Shown: in pieces, positions 8,028-53,345 of the stretch
Layout: every line of letters starts with the position of its first letter
Numbering within the stretch: the stretch's first letter is position 1
Assembly (NCBI RefSeq): GCF_013363995.1
Contig: NZ_JABWGO010000007.1
Span: forward strand, 310,001 to 374,000
Length of the DNA: 64,000 nucleotides
Direction: 5' to 3'
Origin: Nonomuraea rhodomycinica
GTDB taxonomy: Bacteria > Actinomycetota > Actinomycetes > Streptosporangiales > Streptosporangiaceae
Notes under the pieces: model-generated
The model's database searches: none
Told to the model about the DNA's origin: nothing
Seen by the model: only the letters and a program-made list of their open reading frames with translations
Translations under genes and position numbers: made by a program

Positions 8028-8984
8028 TCAGCCGGATGAGGCGTCGCGGCCGGCGAGGCGGGCCCGCAGCCGGGCGGGGTCGGGCCAGTGCACGCCGTAC
8101 GCCCAGCCGGCCCGCTCGAACCAGCGGATCAGCCGCGCGCTCGGATCGACCTGCCCCCGCAGCACCCCGTGCCGGGCGCAGGTCGGCTCCATGTGGTGCC
8201 AGTTGTGCCAGCCCTCGCCGAGCGTCAGCAGCGCCACCCACCACACGTTCGACGAACGGTCGCGGGTGCGGAACGGGCGGTCGCCGAAGGTGTGGGCGAC
8301 GGAGTTCACCGACCACGTGACGTGGTGGACCACGGCGTAACGGACCAGCCCGCCCCAGAAGAAGGCCGTCCACGCGCCCGCCCACGACCACGACCACAGC
8401 CCGCCCACGACGGCCGGCAGCGCGAACGACAGCGCGGCGACGGCCGGGTAGGCGGCGTCGAACCGGCGCACGTCCGGGTCGGCCAGCAGGTCGGGCACCC
8501 AGTGCCGGGGGCTGGAGCGCCGGCGCGCGGTGTAGAACCAGCCGACGTGGGCGTGTGCCATGCCGCGCAGCAGGGCCCAGCCGTCGTCGCCGTAACGCCA
8601 CGGCGAGTGCGGGTCGCCCTCGCGGTCGGCGTACTTGTGGTGCCGCCGGTGCTCGGCCGTCCACAGCGTGACCGGACCCTCGACCGCCATGCCGCCCGCC
8701 AGCATGAGCGCGACGCGCAGCGGCCGGCGGCAGCGGAAGGCCCGGTGGGTGAACAGCCGGTGGTAGCCGACGGCTATCCCGAAGATGCTGATCAGGTACA
8801 TCACGACCGCGATGACGACGTCGCGCGGGCCGACGCCCCACCCCCACGCGGCGGGCACGGCGAGCGCCAGCAGCAGCACGGGGAGCACGACGAGGACGAC
8901 CAGGTAGACGGTGCGGCGGCCGGTGGTGACCGTCACCGTCTCCGCCGTGCCCGGGCCCGGCTGGGGGATGGCCGACGAGGTCAC
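8028..8984 (-). CDS. Membrane fatty-acid desaturase (acyl-CoA / stearoyl type)
   Basis: 318 residues, GTG start with GGGAGG five bases upstream. Hydrophobic segments at about 27-72 and 183-225 flank the three histidine boxes of the di-iron desaturase family: HRLFTH (75-80), EHRRHH (111-116) and GEGWHNWHH (256-264). The enzyme inserts a cis double bond into acyl chains at the membrane with O2 and electrons from a ferredoxin or cytochrome. It is divergent from the P450/dioxygenase operon with a 241-base shared regulatory region, so it may supply unsaturated substrate for that pathway (inference). Confidence 0.92.
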   Translation of the reverse strand: MTSSAIPQPGPGTAETVTVTTGRRTVYLVVLVVLPVLLLALAVPAAWGWGVGPRDVVIAVVMYLISIFGIAVGYHRLFTHRAFRCRRPLRVALMLAGGMAVEGPVTLWTAEHRRHHKYADREGDPHSPWRYGDDGWALLRGMAHAHVGWFYTARRRSSPRHWVPDLLADPDVRRFDAAYPAVAALSFALPAVVGGLWSWSWAGAWTAFFWGGLVRYAVVHHVTWSVNSVAHTFGDRPFRTRDRSSNVWWVALLTLGEGWHNWHHMEPTCARHGVLRGQVDPSARLIRWFERAGWAYGVHWPDPARLRARLAGRDASSG

Positions 8985-9015
8985 ACTGCCTCCCGTGATC
9001 GGCGAAGGGGACGCC

Positions 9016-9051
9016 GCGGCCCCTCGTTCAGGTGCTGCGGCCCCTCATTCA
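9016..9051. promoter_or_regulatory. Direct repeat with 21-bp period in divergent promoter region
   Basis: GCGGCCCCTCGTTCA at 9016-9030 is repeated as GCGGCCCCTCATTCA at 9037-9051 (14 of 15 identical). The 21-base period equals two helical turns, as expected for two regulator molecules on one DNA face between the desaturase and the P450 operon. Confidence 0.55.
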
Positions 9052-9159
9052 AAGGCCGTGTCCCCGGCCCACGGCAATGGCCGGGAAGTGACGACATCGT
9101 CACCGTGAGGAATCAAAACACTGCGCACCGTAACCCTGAGCCGGCGCCGCGTCCCTGTC

Positions 9160-9165
9160 TAGATT
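9160..9165 (+). promoter_or_regulatory. Possible -10 element of the P450-dioxygenase operon
   Basis: TAGATT at 9160-9165 resembles actinobacterial -10 boxes and would start transcription near 9172, between the upstream GTG and the preferred ATG at 9226. No clear -35 is visible. Confidence 0.3.
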
Positions 9166-9225
9166 GTGGCTACACAACGTGATGATCTCTTTTCGCTCCG
9201 GCTTCAGACGGAAGGGGCCACTGGC

Positions 9226-10533
9226 ATGGGCGCTGCCGGTCCGACGACCACGGGCGGCTATCTCGACCGGTACGACGAGGCGCTGGCCCGCGACCCGGTG
9301 TCCGCGTTCGGCCTCGTGCGGGAGTGGATGCGCACCGACTGGCGCGACCTGTTCGCCGAGCTGCGCGAGCGGCGCCCCGTCTTCGTCACGCCCGCCTTCA
9401 CGGTGGTGACCCGCTTCGCCGACGTGATGGAGGTGCTCTCCCACGAGTCGGTCTTCTCGGTGCGCGCCTTCGGCCCGCGCCTGGACGCCGCGCTGGGCGG
9501 CCCGTTCATGCTGGGCCGTGACGCCACGGCGATGAACTGGCGCGACCGGGGCCTCATGCAGGTCATGCTCGACCAGCGCGACACGGCCCGGGTGCGCGAG
9601 CTGGCCGGGCGCGTCGCCGACGAGGCGCTCGACGCCGCCTGGCCGCACGGCCGCATCGAGGCCGTCCACGCCCTGTTCCGCCACGTCGCGCTGGAGGTCT
9701 GCGCGACGTACTTCGGCCTCCCCGGCCCCGACCGGCAGACCCTGTCGCGGTGGACGCGGGCGATCGTCACCGACGGCTTCGCCAACTTCGCCGGCGACCC
9801 CGACCTCCAGGCCGCGTCGGTGCAGGCGGGCGCCGACATGACGGCGTACCTGCGCGACCGGCTCGCCGAGCTGCGGGCCGCCCGGCGCGCCGGGGAGCAG
9901 CCGCCCGACCACGTGTTCGCCCGGCTCGCGGGCACCGCCCTGCCCGCCGGGATCGGCGTGGACGACGAGCGCGTCGTGGTCAACATGGCCGGGCTGCCGC
10001 TCGGCTTCGTGGAGAGCGCGCCCGGCGCCATGGCCGAGGCGGTCGAGCAGCTCCTGCTGCGTCCCGAGGTGCTGGCGCGGGCCGTCGAGGCGGCCGCCGA
10101 GCCCGATCCCGCCCGCTTCGACGCCCACGTCTGGGAGGCGCTGCGGTTCAACCCGTTCTTCAAGCTGCTTCCCCGGCTGTGCGAGCGCGACCACGTGCTC
10201 GCCGCCGGCACCCCGCGGGCCACGCTCGTCCCCGCGGGCACGTTCGTGCTCGCCGCCCCGGCCTCGGCCATGTTCGACGAGGACGTGGTGGCCGAGCCCG
10301 ACGCGTTCCGCCTCGACCGGCCCGGCCACCACCACCTGTTCTTCGGTCACGGCCACCACGCCTGCCTCGGCGTCCATCCCGCCAGGGTCGTCATCTGCGA
10401 GGTCGTCCGCCGCCTGCTGCTGCGCCCCGGCGTACGCCTGCTCCCGCCGCCGGAAGGGCGGCTCGTCCGCTCGCACGGGATCTTCCCCGACCGGTTCGTC
10501 CTCGGCCTCGGCGGCGAGGGGGAGCGGGCATGA
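9226..10533 (+). CDS. Cytochrome P450, probably a hydroperoxide-processing type
   Basis: 435 residues from ATG 9226, which has GGAAGGGG eight bases upstream; a GTG at 9166 lacks one. The heme loop FFGHGHHACLGVH gives the thiolate ligand Cys380, and EALR (304-307) is the ExxR motif. The I-helix (about 251-270) reads VVNMAGLPLGFVESA: the usual AGxxT with an acid-Thr pair is missing, Pro258-Leu259 standing in its place. This loss is known in P450s that rearrange fatty-acid hydroperoxides without activating O2 (CYP74, prostacyclin synthase, the P450 half of fungal Ppo enzymes). It overlaps the next gene by ATGA, so it is coupled to a cyclooxygenase-like enzyme; a hydroperoxide isomerase role is inferred. 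Confidence 0.9.
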   Translation: MGAAGPTTTGGYLDRYDEALARDPVSAFGLVREWMRTDWRDLFAELRERRPVFVTPAFTVVTRFADVMEVLSHESVFSVRAFGPRLDAALGGPFMLGRDATAMNWRDRGLMQVMLDQRDTARVRELAGRVADEALDAAWPHGRIEAVHALFRHVALEVCATYFGLPGPDRQTLSRWTRAIVTDGFANFAGDPDLQAASVQAGADMTAYLRDRLAELRAARRAGEQPPDHVFARLAGTALPAGIGVDDERVVVNMAGLPLGFVESAPGAMAEAVEQLLLRPEVLARAVEAAAEPDPARFDAHVWEALRFNPFFKLLPRLCERDHVLAAGTPRATLVPAGTFVLAAPASAMFDEDVVAEPDAFRLDRPGHHHLFFGHGHHACLGVHPARVVICEVVRRLLLRPGVRLLPPPEGRLVRSHGIFPDRFVLGLGGEGERA

Positions 10534-12149
10534 CCAGCGCGCGCGGCATCGCGGTCGACGGGGCCGCCAACCGGCTCAGGTTCCTGGCGCTCACCAACGG
10601 CCGGCCGTTCTGGGACCTGGCGCAGGCCGTCCCGCCGCTCCGGCGGCGCCTCAACGCCTCGTTGATCGACCACGCGGTCCGCGAGATGCCCCCGCGGCCC
10701 GAGCCGCTGAGCACGATGGCCGGCTACACCTCCTGGGCGTCGCTCACCGACCGCACCTACAGCGGCAGGCACCTGCCCCCGCACACCGCGACCGGCGACG
10801 GCCGGCCCACTCCCGAGCGGGCCGCCGAGCTGTTCACCCGCGGCGACGCCATGATCCCCTGCCCGCGCTCCACGGTGCTGTTCGCCTACTTCGCCCAGTG
10901 GTTCACCGACGGCTTCCTGCGCGGCGACGTCAACATCCCGCGCGACCCGCGCAAGAACAGCTCCAACCACCACATCGACCTCAACCAGCTCTACGGCCTG
11001 CGCCCGGACGCGACGGCGGCGCTGCGCGCGTTCGACGGCGGGCTGCTCAAGAGCCAGCTCATCGACGGCGGCGAGTTCCCGCCCCACCTGTGCGAGAACG
11101 GCAAGATCAAGCCGGAGTTCGCGCCGCTGAGCGTGATCCGCTTCGACGAGCTCACCGACGCCCAGCGCGACACCCTGTTCGCCACCGGCAGCGACCGGGG
11201 CAACATCCAGATCGGCTTCACCATGCTCACGGTGCTGTTCCTGCGCGAGCACAACAGGGTGGCCCGGCAGCTCGCCGAGGCCCATCCGCGCTGGGACGAC
11301 GAGCGGCTGTTCCAGACCGCCCGCAACATCCTCATCGTGCTGCTCATCAAGCTGGTGGTCGAGGAGTACATCAACCACATCACCCCGTACCACTTCCGCT
11401 TCACCCTCGACCCGCGGCTGACGACGCTGCTGGCCCGCGCGCCCTGGCACCGCGAGAACTGGGCGTCGGTCGAGTTCAACCTGGTCTACCGCTGGCACGG
11501 CCTGATCCCCTCGCGGCTGTCGGTGGGCGGGCGCGAACTGCCGATGGCCGACACGCTCGTGGGCGGCGCGCTGATCCCCGGACCGGGCCTCGGCCGGCTC
11601 TTCGAGGACGCCTCCCGCCAGCGCGCCGGCCGGATCGGCCTGTTCAACACCGACCCGCTGCTGCGGGAGGTGGACGCGGCCAGCATCGCCGACTCCCGGG
11701 CCCTGGACCTGGCGCCCTACAACAGCTACCGCGAGCACTGCCGCTTCCCCCGGGTGCGCCGCTTCGAGCACGTCTCCGGCGACCGGCGGGTCAGCGGCGC
11801 GCTGCGGGAGCTGTATCGCGGCGTGGACGACCTCGACCTGTACGTGGGGCTGTTCGCCGAGGAGCCCGGATCTCCCGACGCCATCCTGCCGCCGCTCCTC
11901 ACGAAGATCATCGCGATCGACGCGTTCTCCCAGGCGCTGACCAACCCGCTGCTGGCGCCGCGGGTGTTCAACGCCGCCACCTTCTCGCCGACCGGCATGC
12001 GGATCATCGCCACCACCAGGACGCTGTCGGACGTGGTGCGCCGCAACGTGCCCGAGGACCCGCGTCCCCGCTTCGTCAGCATGACCCGCGCCGTCGTCCC
12101 CGGCGCCGCCGCCTCCCGCCCCGGCACGACCCGCGGCGCGCGCCGATGA
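10530..12149 (+). CDS. Cyclooxygenase-like heme fatty-acid dioxygenase (animal peroxidase superfamily)
   Basis: 539 residues. Aligned from memory with mammalian COX: VLFAYFAQWFTDGFL matches the distal heme region, LREHNRV and HPRWDDERLFQTAR match almost exactly, and FNLVYRWHGLIP carries the catalytic Tyr320 (COX Tyr385) and proximal His323 (COX His388); ASRQRAGRIG and NPLLAPRVF follow in order. The EGF and membrane-binding parts are absent. Distal Gln123 (COX Gln203) is kept but the distal peroxidase His207 is Asp127, which should weaken peroxidase activity and leave a fatty-acid hydroperoxide as product. ATGA overlaps on both sides join it to the P450 and the lipase-like gene. Oxylipin synthesis is a strong inference; the substrate is unknown. 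Confidence 0.9.
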   Translation: MTSARGIAVDGAANRLRFLALTNGRPFWDLAQAVPPLRRRLNASLIDHAVREMPPRPEPLSTMAGYTSWASLTDRTYSGRHLPPHTATGDGRPTPERAAELFTRGDAMIPCPRSTVLFAYFAQWFTDGFLRGDVNIPRDPRKNSSNHHIDLNQLYGLRPDATAALRAFDGGLLKSQLIDGGEFPPHLCENGKIKPEFAPLSVIRFDELTDAQRDTLFATGSDRGNIQIGFTMLTVLFLREHNRVARQLAEAHPRWDDERLFQTARNILIVLLIKLVVEEYINHITPYHFRFTLDPRLTTLLARAPWHRENWASVEFNLVYRWHGLIPSRLSVGGRELPMADTLVGGALIPGPGLGRLFEDASRQRAGRIGLFNTDPLLREVDAASIADSRALDLAPYNSYREHCRFPRVRRFEHVSGDRRVSGALRELYRGVDDLDLYVGLFAEEPGSPDAILPPLLTKIIAIDAFSQALTNPLLAPRVFNAATFSPTGMRIIATTRTLSDVVRRNVPEDPRPRFVSMTRAVVPGAAASRPGTTRGARR

Positions 12150-14371
12150 CCGCCGACCTCAACGCGTCCGGCGAGCCGCCGCATGGCCCGGGGGCTGACG
12201 CGGCCGGTCAGGGGGGTGACGCGACCGGTCCGGCCGCGGAGTCGTTGCGGGGGGCGGCGCGTGAGCTGGTCGACATCGGGGTCGTGATCCGCGGGGCGGC
12301 CGTCCACGCGACGGCCGCCCTCACCGACGGCGCCCTGCTCCAGGCCCTGCCGCACGCGCCCTCCCCGGGCTGGCGGACCCAGCGGGCGCTGCTGCGCGCG
12401 ATCACCAACGGCAGGGGCCTCGGGTGGGCGCCCGCGGGCAGCCGCTCCGCCTCCGTGGCCGCCGCGCTGGGCGCGCTCGCGGGCGCGGAGAGCCTGGCCG
12501 TACGCGTCCTGGCCACCTCCTTGCGGCTGCGGGTCGAGGCCGTCGCCCTCGACCACCCGGAGCTGACCGGCGACCCCATGCTCAGCCGGCTCATCGAGGC
12601 GGCCGCGGCGGACCGCGACCTGGAGGCCGTCCGCGCCCTGCGCGCGCTGCTCGGCGACCGCGGCGCCGTACGCGTCCTCAGCCAGCTCGCCCCGGTCTTC
12701 GGCGAGGTGCTCGCCCTGCGGGCGCTGCTCGACGAGAACCCGCTCAACGACGCCACCGCCTGGCTGATCGCCACGGGAACGGGCTACGCCACGGCCGACC
12801 CGGTCACCGGCATGAGCAACCGGGCCGTGGCCGTGCTCGACCGGGGCGAGGGGGCCGCGCGCCGGGTCGAGCCGGCCGAGGCCGAGTCCGCGCGGCTGGC
12901 CACGAAGGGATCCCTGCTCGGCTTCCTCGGCAACCTCAGCGTGATCGGCACCACGGGCCGCGTCCTCATCCAGAGCGTCGAGGGCCCCGACGGGGTGGTG
13001 CGCCACGTCGTCCAGGCGCCCGGCATGCGGGCCGGGCGGCCCGACCACGACTCGCCGCAGGACCTGCTCGGCGCCTTCAGCAGCGCCGTCCTGGCCGCGA
13101 GCCCGTACAGCCGCGCCCTGGCCAAGGCCGTCGCCGACTACGGCTTGCCCGAGGGCGCCGAGGTGGCTCTGATCGGGCACAGCGCGGGGGGCGCGGCCGT
13201 CATGAACCTGGCGCAGGACCCCGGGTTCTGCGCCCGCCACACCGTCACCCACGCCATCGCGGTCGGCGCGCCCGTCGACTTCAAGCGGCCCGCCGACCCG
13301 GACACCTGGGTCGCCAGCGTCACCAACCAGCACGACATCGTCCCCACTCTCGACGGCCAGGGCGCCGGCGGCTGCTTCGACCTGCATCCCGACTGGTACG
13401 TGGTGGACTACTCCGACGCCACCCACCTGTTCCCGCTCTGCCACAGCATCGACCGCTACATCGCCAACATCGCCACCGACCTGCCCGAGGCCCGCGACCA
13501 CATCGACGGGCGCCTCGCGCCGTACCGGGGGCCGGTCGTGCGCTCGCAGGTCTACCGGCTGTTCGACCACCCGCCCGAACCCGAGGGGTTCCCCTTCCTG
13601 ACCGTGCCGACCCACGCGGTGCCCGGTCCGGGCGGCCGGGTGGAGCTGCCGATCCGCTGTCACGACGGCGGCGCGCTCACCGCGTACTTCGCCGCGGACC
13701 CGGCGGTGGCGGCGGCCCTCCTGGAGGGCACCGGGCTCGGCCCCGCCGTGCGGGTCGCCGGCCGTGCCCTCGTCGCCGTCCACGCCGCCTGGAACCGGCG
13801 TACCAGCGTGGGCGTCCACCGCGAGCTCCACGTCGGGGTCGTCGTGCCCGGCCCGTGGCGGGCCCGCGGGCCGCTCGGCTGGTACGACCTGGTGCGCGGG
13901 GCCGACCGGCGGCGTTCGGGCGTCTTCCTGGCCGGCTCCGTGGTGGACACCGCCGTCGTCGCCGCCCTGGCGCCGCGGCTGTGGGGCGGCGAGCCGTCGC
14001 TGCTGCCGCTGGAGTTCGGGCTGGCCAGGGGCGTCGCCCGCATCACCGCCGGGGCGGAGGCTCGCGGCGACGGAGAGCGGCTGCTCGTCCTGGGCGGGCG
14101 GCTCGGCCCCGGGCTGCCGGTGAGCGAGCGCGACCTGGTCGGCTACGCGCGGGCGGCGGGCACGACGCTGCGCTCCTGCGTACGGGCCCGCGGCCGGGCG
14201 CTGCTGCACCCCGCGCCCCGGCTCCGGCTCACTGTGGAGCCCGGATCGGCCCACCCGCTGGCCCGCCTGCTGCGCGAGCTGGGTCTCGACGGCGCCCGCC
14301 CGCTGCTCTGCCTGTCGGCCGCCGCCCGCCGGACCCTGCGTGACGCCGCCGTCCCGGTGCCGACCACCTGA
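12146..14371 (+). CDS. Lipase-like alpha/beta hydrolase with an extra C-terminal domain
   Basis: 741 residues; ATG 12146 overlaps the dioxygenase stop (ATGA). After about 250 mainly helical residues comes an alpha/beta-hydrolase with GHSAGG (Ser346), NQHDIVP (Asp397) and LCHSIDRY (His433) as a plausible triad, the spacing of lipases and esterases. Residues about 480-741 form a separate domain (FPFLTVPTH..., CHDGGALTAYFAADP..., VGVHRELHVGVVVPG) that resembles the acetoacetate-decarboxylase-like fold; this is a weak memory-based match. It may release fatty acid for the dioxygenase or hydrolyse or further process the product. No signal peptide is evident, so action is cytosolic or at the inner membrane face. 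Confidence 0.82.
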   Translation: MTADLNASGEPPHGPGADAAGQGGDATGPAAESLRGAARELVDIGVVIRGAAVHATAALTDGALLQALPHAPSPGWRTQRALLRAITNGRGLGWAPAGSRSASVAAALGALAGAESLAVRVLATSLRLRVEAVALDHPELTGDPMLSRLIEAAAADRDLEAVRALRALLGDRGAVRVLSQLAPVFGEVLALRALLDENPLNDATAWLIATGTGYATADPVTGMSNRAVAVLDRGEGAARRVEPAEAESARLATKGSLLGFLGNLSVIGTTGRVLIQSVEGPDGVVRHVVQAPGMRAGRPDHDSPQDLLGAFSSAVLAASPYSRALAKAVADYGLPEGAEVALIGHSAGGAAVMNLAQDPGFCARHTVTHAIAVGAPVDFKRPADPDTWVASVTNQHDIVPTLDGQGAGGCFDLHPDWYVVDYSDATHLFPLCHSIDRYIANIATDLPEARDHIDGRLAPYRGPVVRSQVYRLFDHPPEPEGFPFLTVPTHAVPGPGGRVELPIRCHDGGALTAYFAADPAVAAALLEGTGLGPAVRVAGRALVAVHAAWNRRTSVGVHRELHVGVVVPGPWRARGPLGWYDLVRGADRRRSGVFLAGSVVDTAVVAALAPRLWGGEPSLLPLEFGLARGVARITAGAEARGDGERLLVLGGRLGPGLPVSERDLVGYARAAGTTLRSCVRARGRALLHPAPRLRLTVEPGSAHPLARLLRELGLDGARPLLCLSAAARRTLRDAAVPVPTT

Positions 14372-14448
14372 CCTGGCGGAACGCGGCCGGTGGGCCGCGC
14401 CGGTGCCGCCACCGTCCGCGAGTGCCGACCATCTGATCGGAGGACCAC

Positions 14449-14805
14449 ATGCGCCGTCACCCCGCTCGGCGATCGGCCCGGCGTCCGGCCGACCCGGCGT
14501 CGATCATCGCGCACGCCGTCGTGCTGGAGACCGACGCCCGCGCGCTGGCCGAGTGCGCCGAGCGCCTGCGTGGGATCACCGAGCGGCTGGAGGCGGGCGG
14601 TGTCGCGCCGCGCTGGCTGCGCCAGGCGGTGAACGCCCACCTGGCCGCCTGCGTGACCGCCGCCGCCGACCTCACCACGGCCGCCGCCCACCTGCGCCAC
14701 TACGCCGACAGCGTCCGCTCCGCCGACAGCGTCCGCTCCGCCGACAGCGTCCGCTCCGCCGACAGCGTCCGTCCCGCCGACAGCGTCCGCCCTGCTGGGC
14801 GCTGA
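14449..14805 (+). CDS. Small Ala-rich protein ending in five DSVRxA repeats
   Basis: 118 residues, good ribosome site GGAGG before ATG 14449, last gene of the oxylipin-like operon (77 bases after the lipase). An Arg/Pro-rich start leads to an amphipathic helical region (19-80) and then to five tandem copies of a six-residue unit DSVRSA / DSVRPA, encoded by an 18-bp DNA repeat. The function is unknown; the helical part could bind lipid or membrane. Confidence 0.65.
   Translation: MRRHPARRSARRPADPASIIAHAVVLETDARALAECAERLRGITERLEAGGVAPRWLRQAVNAHLAACVTAAADLTTAAAHLRHYADSVRSADSVRSADSVRSADSVRPADSVRPAGR
14705..14793. repeat. 18-bp tandem repeat inside a coding region
   Basis: Five consecutive units of GCCGACAGCGTCCGCTCC with only one to three changes in the last units (14705-14793). 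The array is in frame and is likely variable in copy number between strains. Confidence 0.85.
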
Positions 14806-16869: not shown

Positions 16870-17730
16870 TCAGCGCAGGCCGTGCCGGTCCGCCCACGCC
16901 GAGACGGCCGCGGCGATCAGGGCGGGCTGGTCCTCCGGCGTGTGGTGCCCGGCGACGGCGTCGGAGCGCTCGATCTCCAGGGCCGCCATCGTGGCGGCGC
17001 ACCACGCGACCATGTCGTCGCCCACCATCACCCCCGCCCCGGGCGCGAACGTCATCAGCAGCTTGGGCACCTCCGCGCTGGCCGCCAGCCACCGGTCGTA
17101 CGCCTCGACCCTGGCCACGACGTCGGCGGGCTCGCCGCCCAGCGGCATCGAGCGCGCCCACCGCAGGAGCGGCAGCCTGCTCTCGCGCGTCGGGTACGGC
17201 TTGCGGTAGACGTCGAGGTCGCCCTCGGACATCGGCGACGCGGTGCTGCCCGGCAGGCCCTGCTCGATGAAGGCGTTGTCGTCCAGGAGCATGGCCTCGC
17301 CGACGCCCTCGGTCTTGATCGCCCGGAACAGCTCGCGGCCGCCCTCGGGGAACTCTTCCCAGGTCATCGGCTTGACGATGGTCTCGGTGAACGCGATGCC
17401 GCGCACCCGGTCCGGATGGCGGGCGGCCCAGTCGAAGGCCAGGGCGCCGCCCCAGTCGTGTCCGACCAGCACCACGTCGCGCAGGCCGAGCGCGTCGAAC
17501 CAGGCGTCGAGGTAGCGGGCGTGGTCGGCGAAGGTGTAGGCGATGTCGGGTTTGCCGGACTCGCCCATGCCGATGAGGTCGGGGGCCAGCAGCCGCCCGG
17601 GGCCCACGGCCGGCATGACGTTCCGCCACAGGTAGGAGGAGGTGGGGTTGCCGTGCAGGAAGACGACGGGCGTCCCGGCGCCGGACTCCCGGTAGTGGAC
17701 GGTGGAGTCGAGGACGTGCTGAACAGGCAT
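16870..17730 (-). CDS. Haloalkane dehalogenase (LinB/DhaA subfamily)
   Basis: 286 residues from ATG 17730. HGNPTSSYLWRN (halide-binding Asn28), GHDWGG (nucleophile Asp92 and halide-binding Trp93), GIAFTET (acid Glu116) and VAGHHTPED (catalytic His263) reproduce the full subfamily II catalytic set at the expected spacing. The enzyme hydrolyses carbon-halogen bonds to alcohols in the cytosol. It is the last of three same-strand genes with a PNPOx-like protein and an NmrA-like reductase. The natural substrate is unknown; some relatives are poor dehalogenases. Confidence 0.88.
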   Translation of the reverse strand: MPVQHVLDSTVHYRESGAGTPVVFLHGNPTSSYLWRNVMPAVGPGRLLAPDLIGMGESGKPDIAYTFADHARYLDAWFDALGLRDVVLVGHDWGGALAFDWAARHPDRVRGIAFTETIVKPMTWEEFPEGGRELFRAIKTEGVGEAMLLDDNAFIEQGLPGSTASPMSEGDLDVYRKPYPTRESRLPLLRWARSMPLGGEPADVVARVEAYDRWLAASAEVPKLLMTFAPGAGVMVGDDMVAWCAATMAALEIERSDAVAGHHTPEDQPALIAAAVSAWADRHGLR

Positions 17731-17750
17731 GATCGGTTCCTTGTCGGGGT

Positions 17751-18146
17751 TCAGAGGTTGAGCCGGATGACGCGGTCGACCGTGATCTCGATGACCACGC
17801 GGCCGGGCGGGTTCGGCGGCGGCGCCCCGTAGCGGGCGGCGTAACGGCGGGCGCCCTCCTCCACCCGCTCGGGGGCGTCGTGGACGGTGGCGGCGCCTTC
17901 GAGCGTCACCCACCGGAACCCGTCCGCCTGGCAGAGCGCCACGCGCCCGCCCGGCCGGGCGAGGTTCCTGGCCTTGCGGGTGGAGCCGGTGGTCAGGACC
18001 CGCGCCAGGCCGGCGGCGCGATCCCAGGTGAAGCGCACCGCGACCACGTGCGGTGAGCCGTCGGGGCGCAGGGTGGTGAGGGTGGCCAGGCGCGGCTCGG
18101 CGAGGAAACGCTCGGCCGCGGCACTGGGGCGGGCGGTCGCGCTCAT
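17751..18146 (-). CDS. PNPOx-fold / F420- or flavin-binding protein
   Basis: 131 residues. ATG 18146 overlaps the stop of the upstream reductase gene (ATGA), so 18146 is preferred over the longer frame. The opening AERFLAEPRLATLTTLRPDGSPHVVAV and KARNLARPGGRVALCQ are typical of pyridoxamine-phosphate-oxidase-like split-barrel proteins of the actinobacterial F420-dependent group. It likely binds F420, FMN or heme in the cytosol; a redox partnership with the coupled reductase is an inference. Confidence 0.8.
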   Translation of the reverse strand: MSATARPSAAAERFLAEPRLATLTTLRPDGSPHVVAVRFTWDRAAGLARVLTTGSTRKARNLARPGGRVALCQADGFRWVTLEGAATVHDAPERVEEGARRYAARYGAPPPNPPGRVVIEITVDRVIRLNL

Positions 18147-39990: not shown

Positions 39991-40067
39991 CAGATATGAA
40001 GATCTAACGGATTCTCGTGAAGGCGATCGCCGATGCATTCATGCCGACGAGAAAGGCCGACTTCGCA

Positions 40068-40151
40068 ATGAAGAGAATCGTCATCCATTTACCCGGAACG
40101 GTCCGGCTCACCGGCGCCGCCACCCCGAAGCACGCCGACCCCACCAGGTAG
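40068..40151 (+). CDS. Short peptide ORF downstream of the TPR gene
   Basis: 27 residues: MKRIVIHLPGTVRLTG then AATPKHADPTR. It starts at ATG 40068, 77 bases after the TPR stop, with GAAAGG 11 bases upstream; an in-frame ATG at 40041 is an alternative. A basic start with a modest hydrophobic stretch and a C-terminal polar tail is what a signalling pro-peptide could look like, but the evidence is position and composition only. Confidence 0.4.
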   Translation: MKRIVIHLPGTVRLTGAATPKHADPTR

Positions 40152-40224
40152 TCGGCTGACAATGGCGGGCGCCGGCCACCGGCCGCCGCCCGCTTCATTT
40201 GTGTGCTCCTGCCAGGATGGCCGA

Positions 40225-40533
40225 GTGTCCTACGAGACCGATGATCTGCCTGGCAGCTGGTACCACCTCAGGGATCCAGAGCGAGCTCGGATGCTGGGAA
40301 GTGAGCTGGCGCATGAGTGCGGCAGCAATGAGCATCCCCTGGCGGGACAGCGAGTCGAGGCCGTAGCTCGCTGCGAAGCGTGTGATGACGTGCTGTTCAA
40401 GTTGCTTGATCGGCAGAGCTGGGCGATCGTTCATCTCACCTGGCGTAGGGAGACGAATCCGTCCTGGCCGTCATGTGACGTGATGGAGGACTGGTCGGAG
40501 GTGCTTGAGAAGCTGGCCGATCGCGGCCACTGA
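40225..40533 (+). CDS. Small hypothetical protein with two Cys pairs
   Basis: 102 residues from GTG 40225 (AGGATGG five bases upstream). Contains YHLRDPERARMLGSELAHECG and ARCEACDDVLF, a possible metal-binding CxxC, then a strand-rich WAIVHLTWRRETNPSWPSCDV. The C-terminal WAIVHLTW pattern resembles small phage- or island-encoded proteins. GC content is lower than the average of the window. Confidence 0.6.
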   Translation: MSYETDDLPGSWYHLRDPERARMLGSELAHECGSNEHPLAGQRVEAVARCEACDDVLFKLLDRQSWAIVHLTWRRETNPSWPSCDVMEDWSEVLEKLADRGH

Positions 40534-40535
40534 CA

Positions 40536-40585
40536 AGCAGCCGGCAAGCTGCCGGCCCCTGCGGCCGGCAAGATCATTGCACGTA
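40536..40585. terminator. GC-rich hairpins between convergent genes
   Basis: GCCGGCAAGCTGCCGGC and a following CCTGCGGCCGGC form overlapping stems between the stops of two convergent small genes. Confidence 0.35.
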
Positions 40586-40603
40586 TGTCGCACAGCCTCG
40601 CTG

Positions 40604-40879
40604 TCACCGACCACGCTTGGCGCGCTCTTGGGATCGGCGCAGCCGGCGTCGGTACTGGCCGAGGCGGGAGCGCCGTGCCCTGTCCAGGAACCGTGCCTGA
40701 GGGTCGGACGCCCACTCGTACAGCTCGAGCTCGAACGGATCGGCGTCAGATGCGATCAGCCTGGCCAATGCATCGCGGTCGCGCTCGATCGAATAGCCAT
40801 CCGACCTGCCCTCCCGCCATAAGTGCCCGCTGACATCCGTCGCGTCCATCGCTTCAGAGTAGCCGTCTTCCTCGATCAT
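40604..40879 (-). CDS. Small hypothetical protein
   Basis: 91 residues from an internal ATG at 40879; the frame is open further upstream but the composition becomes unlike coding sequence. DALARLIASDADPFELELYEWASDPQ and a very basic end (RRSRLGQYRRRLRRSQERAKRGR) suggest a nucleic-acid-binding tail. No family recognised; it may belong to the edge of the neighbouring mobile element. Confidence 0.4.
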   Translation of the reverse strand: MIEEDGYSEAMDATDVSGHLWREGRSDGYSIERDRDALARLIASDADPFELELYEWASDPQARFLDRARRSRLGQYRRRLRRSQERAKRGR

Positions 40880-40955
40880 CGCCGGCCAGGCGGTCGCCAG
40901 ATCGGGTTCCCGTGCCGAACGCCGGGCATGCCGTGGACGTGATGCTCCGTGTGAA

Positions 40956-40977
40956 GACCCCGAGACGTCTCGGGGTC
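40956..40977. terminator. Perfect 22-bp palindrome next to the tRNA-like repeat
   Basis: GACCCCGAGACGTCTCGGGGTC (arms of 11 at 40956-40966 and 40967-40977) immediately precedes the partial tRNA-Lys copy; it may be a terminator or part of the attachment region. Confidence 0.5.
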
Positions 40978-40991
40978 CTCCGTCGTATCGG

Positions 40992-41023
40992 GGGGCTCGA
41001 ACTTGGAACCTACGGAGCAAAAG
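40992..41023. repeat. Partial copy of tRNA-Lys 3' end (attachment-site relic)
   Basis: 28 of 32 bases match 45542-45573, the T-arm to anticodon part of the tRNA-Lys gene: GGGGCTCGAAC, GGAACCTACGGA and AAAAG are shared in order. Such duplication of a tRNA 3' end marks integration of an AICE or phage; the element would span about 41.0-45.6 kb. Confidence 0.75.
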
Positions 41024-41581
41024 ATCCAGTTCAAGCCGTTCCAGATCGTTCAGTGCAGGTCAGAAGCCGTGCGCGGTCTACCCGCAACGGCTCCGCATGA
41101 CCTCGTATTGCATCCCGACCCGCAACCCTGACGGCGCCTCGCTGCTCTCAGACGAGTTTGCGATCATGAGTAGATTGCCCAACATGTCGGACTCCTCGTT
41201 TCGCTCGATGCGCATGGCGCGCCTCGTCCGTCCTCCCGGCACTCCCGGCATCCGGGAACGGGCCGAGTCCAACGGCCGCAGGATCGGCGGGAGCGGCATG
41301 ATCTCCTTTCACGTTCGCGAGGCCTATTTCACCCGCGAATCGCGAGGTGGTCGAGGTCGCCCGCGTCTTTGCACAAGACTCGGGAGTCGGCCCGGAGGTT
41401 CTCCACCGCCTTGGTGCCGAAGAGCCGGACATCCGGCTCGTCGTCGATGAAGAGGTCGCCGGACCTCAGAGAGCGCGTGCTGTCGCGAGGGTGTCCACGT
41501 CGTTCGCCATAGGACGATCTTGGACACCCTCGTTCTCGTCTCCGCAGGCACCCCTTGGACCACACCGCCAGGAGGAAACCA
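41024..41581. other. Non-coding stretch with a possible regulator remnant
   Basis: No intact gene is visible. On the minus strand about 41329-41500 encodes SGDLFIDDEPDVRLFGTKAVENLRADSRVL, which faintly recalls the C-terminus of DUF5753/Scr1-type XRE regulators usual in such islands. The rest looks like decayed DNA. Confidence 0.3.
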
Positions 41582-42007
41582 GTGCCATGCCCGCAACCGC
41601 TCAGCCCCGAGGAGAAGCTCGCCGACGCGAAGAAGCTGTTGGGCCTCCCGCGTATCGTCGTGATCTGCGGCTCCACCCGTTTCATGACCGAGATGACCGA
41701 GGCCGATCTGCGGGAGACCAGAGCCGGAAAGATCGTCGTCAAGCCGGGTTGCGACATGAAGTCGCCGCACGAACTTTGGTCCGATCCTGTCGAGGCCGAG
41801 GCGCTGAAGGTTCGACTCGACGATCTGCACCGGGCGAAGATCCGGCTCGCTGATGAGGTGCTCGTGGTCGGCGACTACATCGGAGACAGCACCCGAGCCG
41901 AAATCGCCTACGCCCGGTCGCTGGGCAAACCCGTGCGGTTCACGCACCCCGAAGTCGACCCCGACGCCTGACCACCAACCCCACACCCTCCGCAGGCACC
42001 CCTTGGA
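41540..42007. repeat. 20-bp direct repeats flanking a cargo gene
   Basis: CTCCGCAGGCACCCCTTGGA occurs at 41540-41559 and again at 41988-42007 with no mismatch. The 430 bases between them contain one intact small gene with its own ribosome site. Confidence 0.8.
41582..41971 (+). CDS. Nucleoside 2-deoxyribosyltransferase-like island protein
   Basis: 129 residues, GTG 41582 with a perfect GGAGG seven bases upstream. IVVICGSTRFMTEMTEADLRE, DDLHRAKIRLADEVLVVGDYIGDSTRAEIAYARSLGKPVRF is the pattern of short CGSTRF proteins related to nucleoside deoxyribosyltransferases, often in phages and integrative elements. It lies between exact 20-bp repeats, within the tRNA-Lys element. Confidence 0.7.
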   Translation: MPCPQPLSPEEKLADAKKLLGLPRIVVICGSTRFMTEMTEADLRETRAGKIVVKPGCDMKSPHELWSDPVEAEALKVRLDDLHRAKIRLADEVLVVGDYIGDSTRAEIAYARSLGKPVRFTHPEVDPDA

Positions 42008-42254
42008 ATGTGGAGAGTTCCACGTCATCCGGTGGTCCAGGGCTGAGGAACGAAGCCCTGGACCACCGATCGCCTCCAACTGTCTACGGCGACCGGCCAT
42101 GCCGTGGCGATCGTTGGCTGCATCTGTGCGGCGGCGTGGCAACCCCGCCCGGTGCGTTCGGTCGGTACGGCGGGGGCGGTGTGCGCTGCCCGGCCCGGTG
42201 TCCCGAGGGCCGGGGTACGGCGATGCGCCGCGCCGCCGCATGACCGGCACGCCT

Positions 42255-42797
42255 ACGGCGAACGCCTCCACCGGTGCCCATGCGCGAAGGACTGCTCGAA
42301 GGCCAAGCGCACCTCCGGCCGGCGGCACGTGTGCCTGACCGCGTGCCGTACGGACTGCGCCAAGCATCATGGCGAGTGCCCGAAATTCTGCCCGCCGGAC
42401 TGCGGCAAGCACACGATCGCCCTTCCGCCCCCGCTGATCGCTCTTCTCAAGCTGCACCGGGAAGCGCAGCAGGCCGAACGTGAAGCCGCGGGGGAGAGGT
42501 GGCAGGACTGGGATCTCGTCTGGTGCATGCCGGACGGAAGCCCCATCGACGCGGGCGACGACTGGGACGAATGGAAAGGAGACCCTCAAGGAAGCCGACA
42601 TCGACAAGGACGCTCGCGTTCACGATGCCCGCCACACTGCTGCGACCCTGCTCCTTGAACAGGGTGTGGACATCCGTGTGGTTCAAGCCGTACTCGGCCA
42701 CTCCCAGCTGACCACGACGAAGCGCTACACCCACATCACGGAAACGCTCGCCACGGAGGCGGCGACACGCATTGGTCGTGCGCTCTGGGAGATCTGA
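42255..42797 (+). pseudogene. Tyrosine integrase remnant, frameshifted
   Basis: The first frame encodes AYGERLHRCPCAKDCSKAK ... [19 protein letters not shown] ... [19 protein letters not shown], and after a shift near 42575 a second frame encodes [43 protein letters not shown], ending at TGA 42795-42797. This is the catalytic half of a pSAM2-type integrase (HxxR HDAR, LGHSQ, Tyr). The N-terminal arm-binding part is missing. It is distinct from the second integrase relic at 44943. Confidence 0.75.
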
Positions 42798-43197
42798 TTG
42801 CAACCCATATTGCAACCCTGGGCGGATTTCCCGATCGCCAAGAGGGGAGTCCGCGGGGACGTTCGCTGAGTTCCGCCCTCGTTCATCCTCTTGGCTGTAC
42901 TCGTGGTTGTACGGTCAAAGCACGCTCAGCTTGGGAAGTCTTTCAAGATCATGGCGTCTGAGCAGGGGGAACGCTGATCTGGTCATACGCTGGTCGAGTG
43001 GCCCTGAGTTCCCGTGACTCCCCGCTGACCGCTGTAGGAACGGGCACGTAACGGGCACGGCGGAGGACATGCATCACTGAGGCCAGTGGGCATGGGTGAC
43101 GCGCGGGACCTCTCGTCCGAGAGAAGCATGATTGATCTACGCGGCTTCGGGAACTTGATTCGCCAACTCTTCGTTTTCATGTAAATCGACGCGGAGG
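42798..43197. other. Intergenic stretch after the integrase relic
   Basis: No gene is supported. It opens with TTGCAACCC repeated 11 bases apart, as often seen after pSAM2-type integrases where attP lies. The rest is moderately AT-rich DNA. Confidence 0.4.
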
Positions 43198-43662
43198 ATG
43201 AATTGGGGAACTAGCTTGGACTGGGGCAAGGGATGGCCTTTTTTGGTGTTCCTGGCTATGTGGCTGGTGGCGGCTTGGGATCTTCCCCGCTTGCCTCATC
43301 TATGGCGTACCGGCATTCTCCGATCTCGATGGATGCCGGATATGAACGTATTGCGAATGGATGTTCGCCCACGGAGCTTCCTCCCTCACGTGCTGTCGTG
43401 CAACTGTTTTACAGGAGGCCTGTTAGTTCTGGTGGCGGGAGTTGCCTTCAAGATCGCATGGATGGAGGCGACTGGGTGGATCGTATTCGCTCTCACCCTG
43501 CCTGCGGCACTACTGCATGCGAGCGTGAACGCTTTCAATCGACCTCGCCTTCTAGTGCCTCCCTTATTGAGAGGTGAGAGAGGCTGGGTCGCTGAACTGC
43601 GCGATCGAGGTCGAGGTGAGGGAGCCGAGCGGGCATCGATGGAGGACCTCTTAGACAGCTAG
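43198..43662 (+). CDS. Low-GC membrane protein (cargo)
   Basis: 154 residues, ATG 43198 directly preceded by GGAGG (very short spacing). Three to four hydrophobic segments (WPFLVFLAMWLVAAWDL, GGLLVLVAGVAFKIAW, GWIVFALTLPAALLHASV). GC content is near 55 %, far below the surroundings, so it was acquired. Followed after 15 bases by a PH/GRAM-like gene; the pair probably acts together at the membrane. Family not recognised. Confidence 0.65.
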   Translation: MNWGTSLDWGKGWPFLVFLAMWLVAAWDLPRLPHLWRTGILRSRWMPDMNVLRMDVRPRSFLPHVLSCNCFTGGLLVLVAGVAFKIAWMEATGWIVFALTLPAALLHASVNAFNRPRLLVPPLLRGERGWVAELRDRGRGEGAERASMEDLLDS

Positions 43663-43677
43663 GAGAAGCGACCCGTC

Positions 43678-44025
43678 ATGGATGAACGGGAACTATTCGA
43701 GGTGTTCCAGGGTACGGATATTATCGTTACGCCCGGCGAGGTATTGCTTCGCAAAGGCGGCGCAAACCTGTGGCGTGGACGAGAGGCTGTGGGTGGTCGT
43801 CTCTGGTTGACCAGTAAATGGCTGGTATTCCGTTCGCACTCTATGAACTTTCAGGCGGGCGTCTGGGCGTGGCCCCTGGAGGAGATCCTCTCGACGGCAC
43901 CAGTCAACACACTCGTCATCGTGCCGAATGGCATGGAAATTGCGTTACGGAGCGATGAACGAATTAAGTTCGTCGTGCACCGCCGTCGGGAATGGATGAG
44001 TGCAATCGCGAAGGCGAAAGAATGA
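43678..44025 (+). CDS. PH/GRAM-like small protein (cargo)
   Basis: 115 residues, ATG 43678 with GGAGAAG upstream. GEVLLRKGGANLWRGREAVGGRLWLTSKWLVFRSH and IALRSDERIKFVVHRRREWMSAI follow the beta-barrel plus C-terminal helix pattern of GRAM/PH-like domains, which bind membranes. Low GC; forms an apparent two-gene unit with the membrane protein upstream. Confidence 0.65.
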   Translation: MDERELFEVFQGTDIIVTPGEVLLRKGGANLWRGREAVGGRLWLTSKWLVFRSHSMNFQAGVWAWPLEEILSTAPVNTLVIVPNGMEIALRSDERIKFVVHRRREWMSAIAKAKE

Positions 44026-45467: not shown

Positions 45468-45531
45468 CTTGGCTGTAAAAGCTGGCTGTACGACCTCGCC
45501 AGACAAGATCGAGGAGAGGCGTTTGAGCTGG

Positions 45532-45604
45532 TAGGGCGCCCGGGGCTCGAACCCGGAACCTACGGATTAAAAGTCCGCAGCTCTGCCAATTGAGCTAACG
45601 CCCC
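45532..45604 (-). tRNA. tRNA-Lys (anticodon UUU)
   Basis: 73 bases on the minus strand: acceptor GGGGCGT pairing with GCGCCCT, D-arm GCTC/GAGC, anticodon loop CTTTTAA (UUU, Lys) on a GCGGA/TCCGT stem, T-arm CCGGG/CCCGG. CCA is not encoded. Its 3' half is copied at 40992-41023. Confidence 0.95.
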
Positions 45605-51098: not shown

Positions 51099-52658
51099 AT
51101 GAACGTCGCTCGCATCCTCCGGACCGTCCTCACGTCCAGAGCGTCGCGGATCGCGGCCGTGCTCGTCGTCGCGGCCGTCGGCGCCTGGCTCGGCATCTTC
51201 CTCAGCGGCACCGTACGGGCCCAGGTGGGCCCCGTGGAGACCGGGATGTCGCTGCGCCCGGCCTGGCGCGGCGAGACCGTCGTCGACGCGAGCCCGCTGG
51301 GCACGCTCGCCTTCCACACCCACGACGCGCCGCTGCGGCTGCGCATCACCCTGGAGAACATCGACCAGGAGCGCGCCAAGGCCCTCATCGAGGACCCGCG
51401 CCTGGCCGACCGGCTGCCCGGCATCATCGAGCGCGACCTGCTCGACGGCGTGCGCGCCCTGGTGATCCGCTCGCTGCTGTGCGCGGGGGCGGGCGCGCTG
51501 GTGGCGGGGGTGCTGGTGTTCAGGCGGCCCAAGGTCGCGCTGCTCGGCCTGCTGGCCGCCTCGGTGGGGCTGGCCGGCACGGGGGCGCTGGCGGCGTACA
51601 CGTTCCGGCCGAACTCGCTGGTCGAGCCGCGCTACTCCGGGCTGATCGCCGCCGCGCCGTCGCTGGTGGGCAGCGCGGAGTCGATCGTGACGAAGTTCGA
51701 GTCGTACCGGTCGCAGCTCACCAAGCTCGTGACGAACGTCTCGAAGCTGTACGACACGGTCTCGACGCTGCCGCTGTACGACGGTGACCCGCGCTCGATC
51801 CGGGTGCTCCACGTCTCGGACATCCACCTCAACCCGATCGCGTGGAACGTGATCCGGTCCCTGAAGGACCAGTTCGCCGTGGACATGATCATCGACACGG
51901 GCGACATCTCCGACCACGGCACCAAGCCCGAGAACAAGTTCGTGGAGGAGATCGGCCGGCTCGGCGTCCCGTACGTCTACATCCGCGGCAACCACGACTC
52001 CATGACCACCCAGAAGGCCGTCGCGAAGCAGAAGAACGCCGTCGTTTTGGACGACAGGTCGCAGAGCGTGGGCGGCCTGACCATCTACGGCCTGGGCGAC
52101 CCGCGCTTCACCCCGGACAAGTCGGTGGCGGTCGACTCCGACCCCGCCAAGCTGGAGCAATGGGGGCGCGACCACCTCGCCAAGGTGGGCAAGCCGGACC
52201 TGGTGGCGGTCCACGACGGCATCATCGGCCGCGGCTTCTCCGGCGCCACGCCCATGGTCCTCGCCGGGCACGCGCACGCCCGGTCGACCACCATGCTGCC
52301 CACGGGCACGCGCGTCCTCGTCCAGGGCTCCACCGGCGGCGCCGGCCTGCGCGCCCTCGAACACGCCGAGCCGACGCCCGTGCAGGCGTCCGTCCTGTAC
52401 TTCGACCGGGAGACGAAACGCCTGCGGGCCTGGGACGACATCACCCTCGGCGGGCTGGGGGAGCAATCGGTGTACATCCAGCGTCACGTGGAGGAGAACC
52501 CGGGACGTATGATTTCCCCAGCGCCGACGAACGCCCCGACGCCATCGGGAACCGTGAGCGGCACGCGAACGCCGGCCGCCGGCCCGCCACTTTGGCATCA
52601 GGGGCAATCGTCCCCTATGCTTCAGAGGTCTCCGACGGAAGGCGACAGGGAAACCTGA
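51099..52658 (+). CDS. Membrane-anchored metallophosphoesterase
   Basis: 519 residues. Two or three membrane segments (about 17-38, 125-170) come before a calcineurin-like phosphoesterase domain (about 230-450) with HVSDIHLNP, IDTGDISDHG, IRGNHDS, AVHDG and LAGHAHA, that is the complete di-metal site. The tail is Pro/Thr-rich. It ends one base before the tRNA-Glu gene. Confidence 0.9.
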   Translation: MNVARILRTVLTSRASRIAAVLVVAAVGAWLGIFLSGTVRAQVGPVETGMSLRPAWRGETVVDASPLGTLAFHTHDAPLRLRITLENIDQERAKALIEDPRLADRLPGIIERDLLDGVRALVIRSLLCAGAGALVAGVLVFRRPKVALLGLLAASVGLAGTGALAAYTFRPNSLVEPRYSGLIAAAPSLVGSAESIVTKFESYRSQLTKLVTNVSKLYDTVSTLPLYDGDPRSIRVLHVSDIHLNPIAWNVIRSLKDQFAVDMIIDTGDISDHGTKPENKFVEEIGRLGVPYVYIRGNHDSMTTQKAVAKQKNAVVLDDRSQSVGGLTIYGLGDPRFTPDKSVAVDSDPAKLEQWGRDHLAKVGKPDLVAVHDGIIGRGFSGATPMVLAGHAHARSTTMLPTGTRVLVQGSTGGAGLRALEHAEPTPVQASVLYFDRETKRLRAWDDITLGGLGEQSVYIQRHVEENPGRMISPAPTNAPTPSGTVSGTRTPAAGPPLWHQGQSSPMLQRSPTEGDRET

Positions 52659-52731
52659 GCCCCCATCGTCTAGCGGCCTAGGACACCGCCCTTTCAAGGC
52701 GGCGGCACGGGTTCGAATCCCGTTGGGGGCA
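52659..52731 (+). tRNA. tRNA-Glu (anticodon UUC)
   Basis: 73 bases: acceptor GCCCCCA/TGGGGGC, anticodon loop CTTTCAA (UUC, Glu) on an ACCGCC-type stem, T-arm with GGTTCGAATCC. Starts directly after the phosphoesterase stop codon. Confidence 0.95.
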
Positions 52732-52831
52732 CCGCGAAGCGCCTGGCGCTACCGGGAAAACGGCAGGTCGAAGACCTCCGAAGAACTGGTAAGCTAAGCG
52801 AGTCGCAAGGCAAGAACAGCAAGACAAGCAA

Positions 52832-52906
52832 GGTCCTGTAGAGCAGTTTGGAGTGCTCGCCACCCTGTCAAGGTGGAGGTCGCGGGTTCAAGTCCCGTCA
52901 GGACCG
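52832..52906 (+). tRNA. tRNA-Asp (anticodon GUC)
   Basis: 75 bases: acceptor GGTCCTG/CAGGACC, anticodon loop CTGTCAA (GUC, Asp) with CCACC/GGTGG stem, T-arm GCGGG TTCAAGT CCCGT. Second gene of the Glu-Asp-Phe cluster. Confidence 0.95.
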
Positions 52907-52911
52907 CTCTG

Positions 52912-52985
52912 GGTCAGGTAGCTCAGTTGGTACGAGCGTCCGCCTGAAAAGCGGAAGGTCGGCAGTTCGACCCTGCCCCTGACCA
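52912..52985 (+). tRNA. tRNA-Phe (anticodon GAA)
   Basis: 74 bases: acceptor GGTCAGG/CCTGACC, anticodon loop CTGAAAA (GAA, Phe) with CCGC/GCGG stem, T-arm GGCAG TTCGACC CTGCC. A T-run (CCTTTTTTG) follows. Its 3' part is copied at 56426-56470. Confidence 0.95.
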
Positions 52986-53004
52986 CCTTTTTTGATTAGC
53001 ACGA

Positions 53005-53036
53005 ATGCCCCGCTCATGATCACATGGACGGGGCAT
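53005..53036. terminator. Hairpin after the tRNA cluster
   Basis: ATGCCCCG (53005-53012) pairs with CGGGGCAT (53029-53036) and is followed by ATTTGTG; likely the terminator of the tRNA operon and, on the other strand, of the integrase relic. Confidence 0.5.
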
Positions 53037-53345
53037 ATTTGTGTTCGCGTGTCCAACTGGGTGACCACGGTTCCGGAGCGAGCGGGAAGATCTCGTCCAT
53101 GACCGTCGCGCCTTGCTGCATGACGGGTCGGCTCTGCTTGCGGTGCACCATCTCGGTCATGAGGGTGTCCGTATGGCCGACCAGCCGTGCGATGTGCTCG
53201 ATCGGGACGTCATGAGCTGAGAGCAGCGATACGCAGCTCCCGGGGTGTCCATTCCGCCATCTCGTTGTCGGTGCCGAACACCCGACTCTCGCTGACATGC
53301 CGACGTACCGTACGAAACGGTTCCGTTGCAGGTCCCCCTGCGTCC
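53020..53345 (-). pseudogene. Tyrosine integrase C-terminal remnant at tRNA-Phe
   Basis: One minus-strand frame encodes RRHVSESRVFGTDNEMAEWT and a shift near 53225 leads to LLSAHDVPIEHIARLVGHTDTLMTEMVHRKQSRPV ending with VMDEIFP. This is the end of a phage-type integrase (LVGHTDT box and the region of the active Tyr, here within MVHRK as His in place of Tyr). Its position beside tRNA-Phe marks the edge of the island. Confidence 0.7.

Follow-up and report, generated by a model that had tools for sequence, protein, structure and literature searches.

The stretch of DNA analysed here (hereafter the window) comprises 64,000 nucleotides of Nonomuraea rhodomycinica (NCBI RefSeq assembly GCF_013363995.1, contig NZ_JABWGO010000007.1, positions 310,001 to 374,000). 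It carries three genes on the forward strand encoding a cytochrome P450 (P450; 9226..10533, 435 aa), a cyclooxygenase (COX)-like haem fatty-acid dioxygenase (DOX; 10530..12149, 539 aa) and a lipase-like protein (12146..14371, 741 aa), and both junctions between them are ATGA overlaps. Divergent from this operon, on the reverse strand, lies a gene for a fatty acid desaturase of the acyl-CoA (stearoyl-CoA) type (8028..8984, 318 aa; PF00487, E 2e-21). A preliminary description of the window had reported these four genes and the ATGA junctions, and both proved correct; the arrangement is confirmed and is beyond chance. We consider it quite likely, judging from homology and gene linkage, that the locus specifies an oxylipin pathway in which two haem enzymes act in succession and the substrate is supplied by genes of the same locus. 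On the best reading, DOX would oxygenate a fatty acid (perhaps oleate), and a dedicated, probably self-sufficient P450 would rearrange the resulting hydroperoxide.

The P450 and desaturase genes are backed by their pattern of GC content at third codon positions. The same crude caller overlooked the dioxygenase and lipase genes, and these calls rest on the Pfam An_peroxidase match, full-length alignment with COX-2 and conservation in relatives. DOX matched PF03098 (An_peroxidase) with an E value of 6e-47, and was the sole An_peroxidase match in the 9.6 Mb genome. It aligned with COX-2 over its full length (E 2e-65, 224 bits), as against 89 bits for peroxinectin, 57 for lactoperoxidase and 54 for alpha-dioxygenase; membership of the last two families was rejected on these scores, and the placement within the COX/DOX group that had been proposed earlier holds. 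The protein is 97% identical to one from N. montanisoli and 95% identical to one from N. roseoviolacea. Among 394 genomes sampled evenly from the window's class, 49 had a DOX match of some kind; in 12 of these, at 13 places, it was near full-length (E 2e-112 or better), while all remaining matches scored 62.5 bits or less. Judged by score, mammalian COX-2 is thus nearer to DOX than are the other haem peroxidases of the window's class, although the two sets of scores come from different programs and the comparison is rough. The COX-like gene of one class member (L040, 8946-10631) is broken by stops, and this sequence, with two stops inside its DOX, was dropped before the DOX alignment (A1) was made.

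Phylogenetic trees were built from 49 DOX and 29 P450 sequences chosen from a larger set. In all 49 aligned DOX rows, the positions of COX Arg120, Gln203, Tyr348, Tyr385 and His388 were occupied by Arg, Gln, Tyr, Tyr and His, respectively. R80 of the window protein aligns with Arg120 at the mouth of the COX channel, and the motif YRWH (11487..11498) holds the predicted catalytic Tyr320 (COX Tyr385) and proximal His323 (COX His388). The 10S-DOX of Nostoc also reads YRWH. The distal haem His of COX, His207 in its peroxidase site, is replaced by Asp in 49 of 49 rows (D127 in the window, 10908..10910). The Nostoc 10S-DOX likewise has Asp at this place, in the context F143-t-d-s-F, and its published terminal and central motifs are IGxDAFxQA and YIxxITPy (PMC13049297, Table 2 for the motifs). 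In the window protein the corresponding segments are FAQWFTDGF, which fits F-T-D-[SG]-F, IIAIDAFSQA (with G changed to A) and EYINHITPY. YRWH is described as the 8-/10-DOX form of its motif and YRFH as the 9-DOX form (PMC8097960), and oleate and linoleate are given as substrates of 10S-DOX (PMC13049297). Based on these motif matches and the lost distal His, we class DOX as a putative bacterial 10S-DOX type and not as a COX; by sequence, its closest functional model is the cyanobacterial 10S-DOX rather than COX itself. A cyanobacterial protein that falls within two residues of the published Nostoc landmarks is 46% identical to the window DOX.

The lipase-like protein gave no sequence match in Pfam, NCBIfam or PDB. 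Its predicted structure, with a mean predicted local distance difference test score (pLDDT) of 79.9, consists of a helical N-terminal part, an alpha/beta-hydrolase at about residues 235-462 and a C-terminal acetoacetate-decarboxylase fold at about 490-741. Residues 238-462 of the model match lipase, phospholipase A1 and alpha/beta-hydrolase structures with Z scores of 7.4-9.3, the best being LipA (Z 9.3, root mean square deviation (rmsd) 4.1, 183 residues aligned). The presumed nucleophile, Ser346 of GHSAGG (13181..13183), is invariant together with Asp397 and His433 in 36 of 36 aligned rows, and it is this triad and the fold that make a lipase the predicted function. The C-terminal part matches the acetoacetate-decarboxylase fold (Z 18-21, rmsd 2.7-3.0, 208-215 residues aligned) and is missing in three of the 36 rows. 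No column of it has Lys in 30% or more of these rows, and a decarboxylase activity was set aside for want of this conserved residue. Sequence matches of the desaturase in PDB are to acyl-CoA desaturases only (E 3e-31). Behind the lipase gene, a small open reading frame (14449-14805, forward strand, 118 aa) is kept in many loci; its likeness to T7SS_signal is weak and below the cut-off. The lipase that it follows also has a long helical N-terminal part, and a link to secretion is possible.

The preliminary description had suggested looking for this gene order in further actinomycete genomes, and it was indeed found there. Our locus counts refer to the 80 best named DOX relatives out of 341, a set biased towards close relatives. 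Among these 80 loci, P450 lies directly upstream of DOX in 72, the desaturase within the stretch in 68 (divergent and upstream in 61) and the lipase in 67 (downstream on the same strand in 53). All four genes occur nearby in 62 and the exact order of the window in 46, so that the association of desaturase and lipase with the two haem enzymes, as first proposed, is borne out in actinomycetes. Some contigs end early; where 3 kb was available on both sides (70 of the 80 loci), all four genes were found in 58. Genera among the loci include Nonomuraea, Streptosporangium, Actinomadura, Actinospica and Streptomyces. It is nevertheless conceivable, if doubtful, that the pathway consists of DOX and P450 only, and that the desaturase and lipase are neighbours serving membrane upkeep. 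Several Streptomyces loci have the lipase inverted and the desaturase moved elsewhere in the stretch, and the rhizobial and cyanobacterial DOX-P450 pairs have neither gene in the stretches searched; yet the four genes stay together in most of the named loci in spite of such rearrangement, which speaks against this reading.

The upstream region is also conserved. A dyad, TTGTG-N4-CACAA (9164..9177), lies between the desaturase and P450 genes and is a candidate operator; it is the sole exact match in the 64 kb, where 0.03 would be expected, it falls inside a conserved intergenic alignment (A5), and it is found just upstream of P450 in 11 of the 80 loci. A P450 start at GTG 9166, giving 455 aa, was rejected since the matching stretch of a relative (L050) contains a stop and the dyad overlaps the GTG, and the start appears better placed at ATG 9226. 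The DOX and P450 trees agree in their major clades, and the DOX and P450 distances are correlated (Mantel r 0.94 for 25 pairs, none of 2000 permutations being as high). In Thermomonospora echinospora a second DOX copy (L097, 9694-11548, at the same place as L034) has only a 92-aa P450 match upstream, as if the partner were decaying. At a locus from a Solirubrobacteraceae metagenome-assembled genome (MAG; L106, 11560-15003), a large BTAD/AAA regulator gene follows DOX and overlaps its end.

The P450 matches PF00067 (E 3e-7) and has ExxR and the haem-binding segment FGHGHHACLG, in which the haem-ligand Cys of HxCxG lies at 10363..10365. Its predicted structure (pLDDT 91) has a bacterial-type fold, the top match being P450BioI with bound acyl carrier protein (acyl-ACP; Z 41, rmsd 2.3, 366 residues aligned), with many rows tied. 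CYP74 enzymes have an enlarged, non-canonical Cys loop, whereas the Cys region here is a canonical FxxGxHxCxG without insert. The top 50 fold rows (Foldseek, VIA-align) contained no CYP74, prostacyclin synthase (PGIS) or thromboxane synthase, an absence that does not exclude likeness. By fold ranking, the modelled P450 appears bacterial-type rather than CYP74-like. The genome has 25 P450 matches, of which the nearest other is 32% identical (E 7e-16). P450s encoded beside DOX elsewhere are closer over nearly their full length, with 43-44% identity in two cyanobacteria (L144, L145) and 35-39% on three rhizobial plasmids (L123, L126, L128). In the class sample, P450 matches at E 1e-50 or better occurred in 8 of 394 genomes. 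Four of them have an E value below 1e-180, and precisely these adjoin a DOX; the remaining four, with 33-38% identity, have none in their neighbourhood. On these comparisons the window P450 falls into a separate family. Near DOX-less relatives of this P450 lie genes for DyP-type peroxidases (PF21105/PF20628; L182 6009-8660, L183 7538-10913, where the P450 and peroxidase genes overlap, and L185 4533-8510), a second peroxidase-P450 pairing.

The partnership of DOX and P450 is conserved across three phyla, which upholds the pairing proposed for the window. Cyanobacterial DOX genes were found in 11 of 242 genomes of a class sample and 9 of 63 genomes of one family, giving 17 distinct loci; P450 adjoins DOX in two of these, a catalase-family gene in five, neither in ten and both in none, the catalase profile having been built from two sequences only. 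Among plasmids, 13 records matched DOX, and of the six examined the three rhizobial ones had P450, those of Paracoccus (L125) and Methylobacterium (L127) a catalase-family gene, and that of Acaryochloris (L124) neither. The two partners were thus never found together beside DOX at the cyanobacterial and plasmid loci examined. Mapping the partner onto the DOX tree takes nine changes with three states, and four for catalase alone, so that partners were exchanged or lost more than once. The catalase-related partner in Nostoc is described as a 10S-hydroperoxide lyase acting on the DOX product (PMC13049297). That P450 stands where a catalase-related enzyme stands elsewhere is the best argument for the P450 acting on a hydroperoxide. 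The same exchange would also suit a lyase route as in Nostoc, where the P450 cuts the hydroperoxide into a short volatile and an oxo-acid instead of forming a diol or epoxy alcohol. We hold this to be a minority possibility; the isomerase-like motif of some relatives (see below) points away from it, and no sequence feature examined separates a lyase from an isomerase. A replacement P450 or catalase was also sought where DOX lacks a P450 neighbour, in Frankia, Solirubrobacter, part of the cyanobacteria and part of the class members. For this, 20 selected neighbours were scanned with Pfam, 16 of them next to such DOXs, one next to the second Thermomonospora DOX and three next to DOX-less P450s, and nothing consistent emerged for the DOXs.

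The I-helix of the P450 reads GFVESAPG (10003..10026), where [AG]Gx[DE]T is usual. Across 85 P450 motif rows, which include the window itself and at least two duplicated records (L032/L064 and L033/L071), the Thr site is Asn in 41, Ser in 34, Thr in 9 and unread in one (L056), and GxxxNxxQ is present in 18; all 13 other aligned P450s of the genome itself keep a Thr within this motif. The I-helix of fungal 5,8-linoleate diol synthase (LDS) is printed as GMxxN887QxQ, with the same spacing as GxxxNxxQ (PMC13049297, Table 3), and NxxQ is reported to be involved in isomerase activity (PMC8097960). The window P450 itself has GFVESAPG, and the hint from NxxQ is therefore only indirect for it. In addition, H378 and C380 of HxCxG are invariant in the P450 alignment (A3), and the His two residues before the Cys is described as essential for the isomerase of PpoA (PMC9579011). 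With comparably low probability, the P450 could instead be a conventional monooxygenase which, with ferredoxin and reductase, further hydroxylates the hydroxy or hydroperoxy fatty acid made by DOX. Its fold ranks among ordinary bacterial P450s, including the acyl-ACP-bound P450BioI, its own E-S may be an acid-alcohol pair, and the cyanobacterial and rhizobial partners retain E-T; the frequent Asn at the Thr site, the GxxxNxxQ rows and the catalase-family proteins in the place of P450 at other loci speak against such chemistry. The genes that recur at the locus did not include one for a ferredoxin. Finally, we think it improbable that the COX-like protein is a peroxidase-type enzyme for a non-lipid substrate, for example in secondary metabolism with P450 as the tailoring enzyme: An_peroxidase is its only Pfam assignment and the genome is rich in P450s, but every row has COX Arg120 and Tyr385 without the distal His, desaturase and lipase recur with DOX, and no polyketide synthase or nonribosomal peptide synthetase was present among the neighbours scanned.

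Returning to the oxylipin pathway, we propose that the enzymes most likely act in the order desaturase, lipase, DOX and P450 to give a C18 (or C16) diol, epoxy alcohol or cleavage product. The desaturase, going by its family, would desaturate acyl chains, probably at the delta-9 position, and the lipase-like hydrolase, going by its fold and triad, would free the acyl chain from membrane lipid. In DOX, the Tyr320 radical would then take an allylic hydrogen and O2 would be added to give a hydroperoxide, as its family and observed residues suggest. From the resemblance to 10S-DOX the likeliest product would be the 10-hydroperoxide of oleate or a similar monoene, a regiochemistry for which we see about an even chance. 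Asp in place of the distal His should make the enzyme a poor peroxidase that releases the hydroperoxide intact. The P450, whose partnership with DOX is observed, would rearrange the hydroperoxide to a diol or epoxy alcohol without a redox partner, a reaction that we regard as on balance probable. The scheme builds on observed homology, residues, gene linkage and cross-phylum pairing, and from these we infer the substrate, the regiochemistry, the independence of a redox partner, the product and its role. That the product serves as a signal or modifies the membrane is a guess.

Several points weigh against this proposal. Enzyme activity, substrate and product are all predictions. The congruent DOX and P450 trees may reflect plain co-inheritance, although a working pair would show the same. 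A P450 neighbour is absent at the DOX loci of Frankia, Solirubrobacter, a Verrucomicrobia MAG and 15 of the 17 cyanobacterial loci. Conversely, a DyP-type peroxidase lies near the DOX-less P450 relatives in all three scanned (L182, L183 and L185, the fourth one found being L184), so that the P450 is not bound to COX-like partners alone. GFVESAPG is neither NxxQ nor TxxQ, its E-S could act as acid and alcohol in the ordinary activation of O2, and the missing neighbour ferredoxin is little proof of self-sufficiency. The lipase function is inferred from a model of middling confidence, and 46% identity to the Nostoc-like protein is distant enough that the regiochemistry could differ.

Elsewhere in the window, GC content falls to 0.63-0.65 with few good open reading frames called at 40001-44000 and 52001-56000. 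Nearby are a tRNA-Lys gene (45529-45604) and, at 52659-52987, a tRNA-Glu/Asp/Phe cluster, which makes an integrated element possible. A haloalkane dehalogenase is encoded at 16870-17913 (419 bits against an NCBIfam cut-off of 241).

The closest known system is that of Nostoc punctiforme, where a linoleate 10S-DOX and a catalase-related 10S-hydroperoxide lyase likewise form an unfused COX-like dioxygenase with a separate haem enzyme. It differs in that the second of the putative enzymes here is a P450 and that a desaturase and a lipase are linked to the pair. The fungal linoleate diol synthases and psi-producing oxygenases (LDS/Ppo) also combine a COX-like dioxygenase with a P450 bearing HxCxG, but as one polypeptide (DOX-CYP fusions), whereas the window has separate genes with P450 first; the fungal enzymes keep the distal His where the window DOX has Asp, and their GxxxNxxQ is present in some bacterial relatives and not in the window P450. 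Animal COX shares the family and Tyr385, His388 and Arg120, and its pairing with thromboxane or prostacyclin synthase may, by analogy, share the principle that a P450 converts a peroxide with no need of a reductant; the window DOX differs in lacking the distal His. Pseudomonas aeruginosa PA2077/PA2078 is likewise a bacterial two-enzyme oleate-diol synthase pathway (PMC4496055), but its enzymes are kin of di-haem cytochrome c peroxidases and not of COX and P450. Already known, then, are the pairing of a bacterial DOX with a second, separate haem enzyme and that of DOX with P450, the latter only as fungal fusions in the literature covered. What appears new is that DOX and P450 stand unfused in bacteria next to genes for substrate supply; no description of this arrangement, or of any actinomycete COX-like/P450 locus, was found in searches of open-licence full texts.

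A 2026 review, in its relevant passages, supposes a bacterial origin for the P450 partners of the fungal dioxygenases, from a P450 that had at one time been fused to a peroxidase-COX relative, and those passages name no such P450 (PMC13049297). It would be a tentative hypothesis that an old, mobile bacterial module of DOX and a hydroperoxide-rearranging P450 gave rise to the fungal DOX-CYP enzymes by transfer and fusion, its second haem enzyme being exchangeable between P450 and catalase-related proteins, with a parallel in the pairing of this P450 family with DyP-type peroxidases. The locus offers a concrete and widespread candidate for the supposed bacterial pairing, and the idea becomes testable by phylogeny and assay. 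If the enzymes are active, they would provide bacterial material for the study of peroxide handover from a COX-like dioxygenase to a P450, and COX-type oxylipins would be shown to be made by actinomycetes of the soil, where fungi that use oxylipins live as well.

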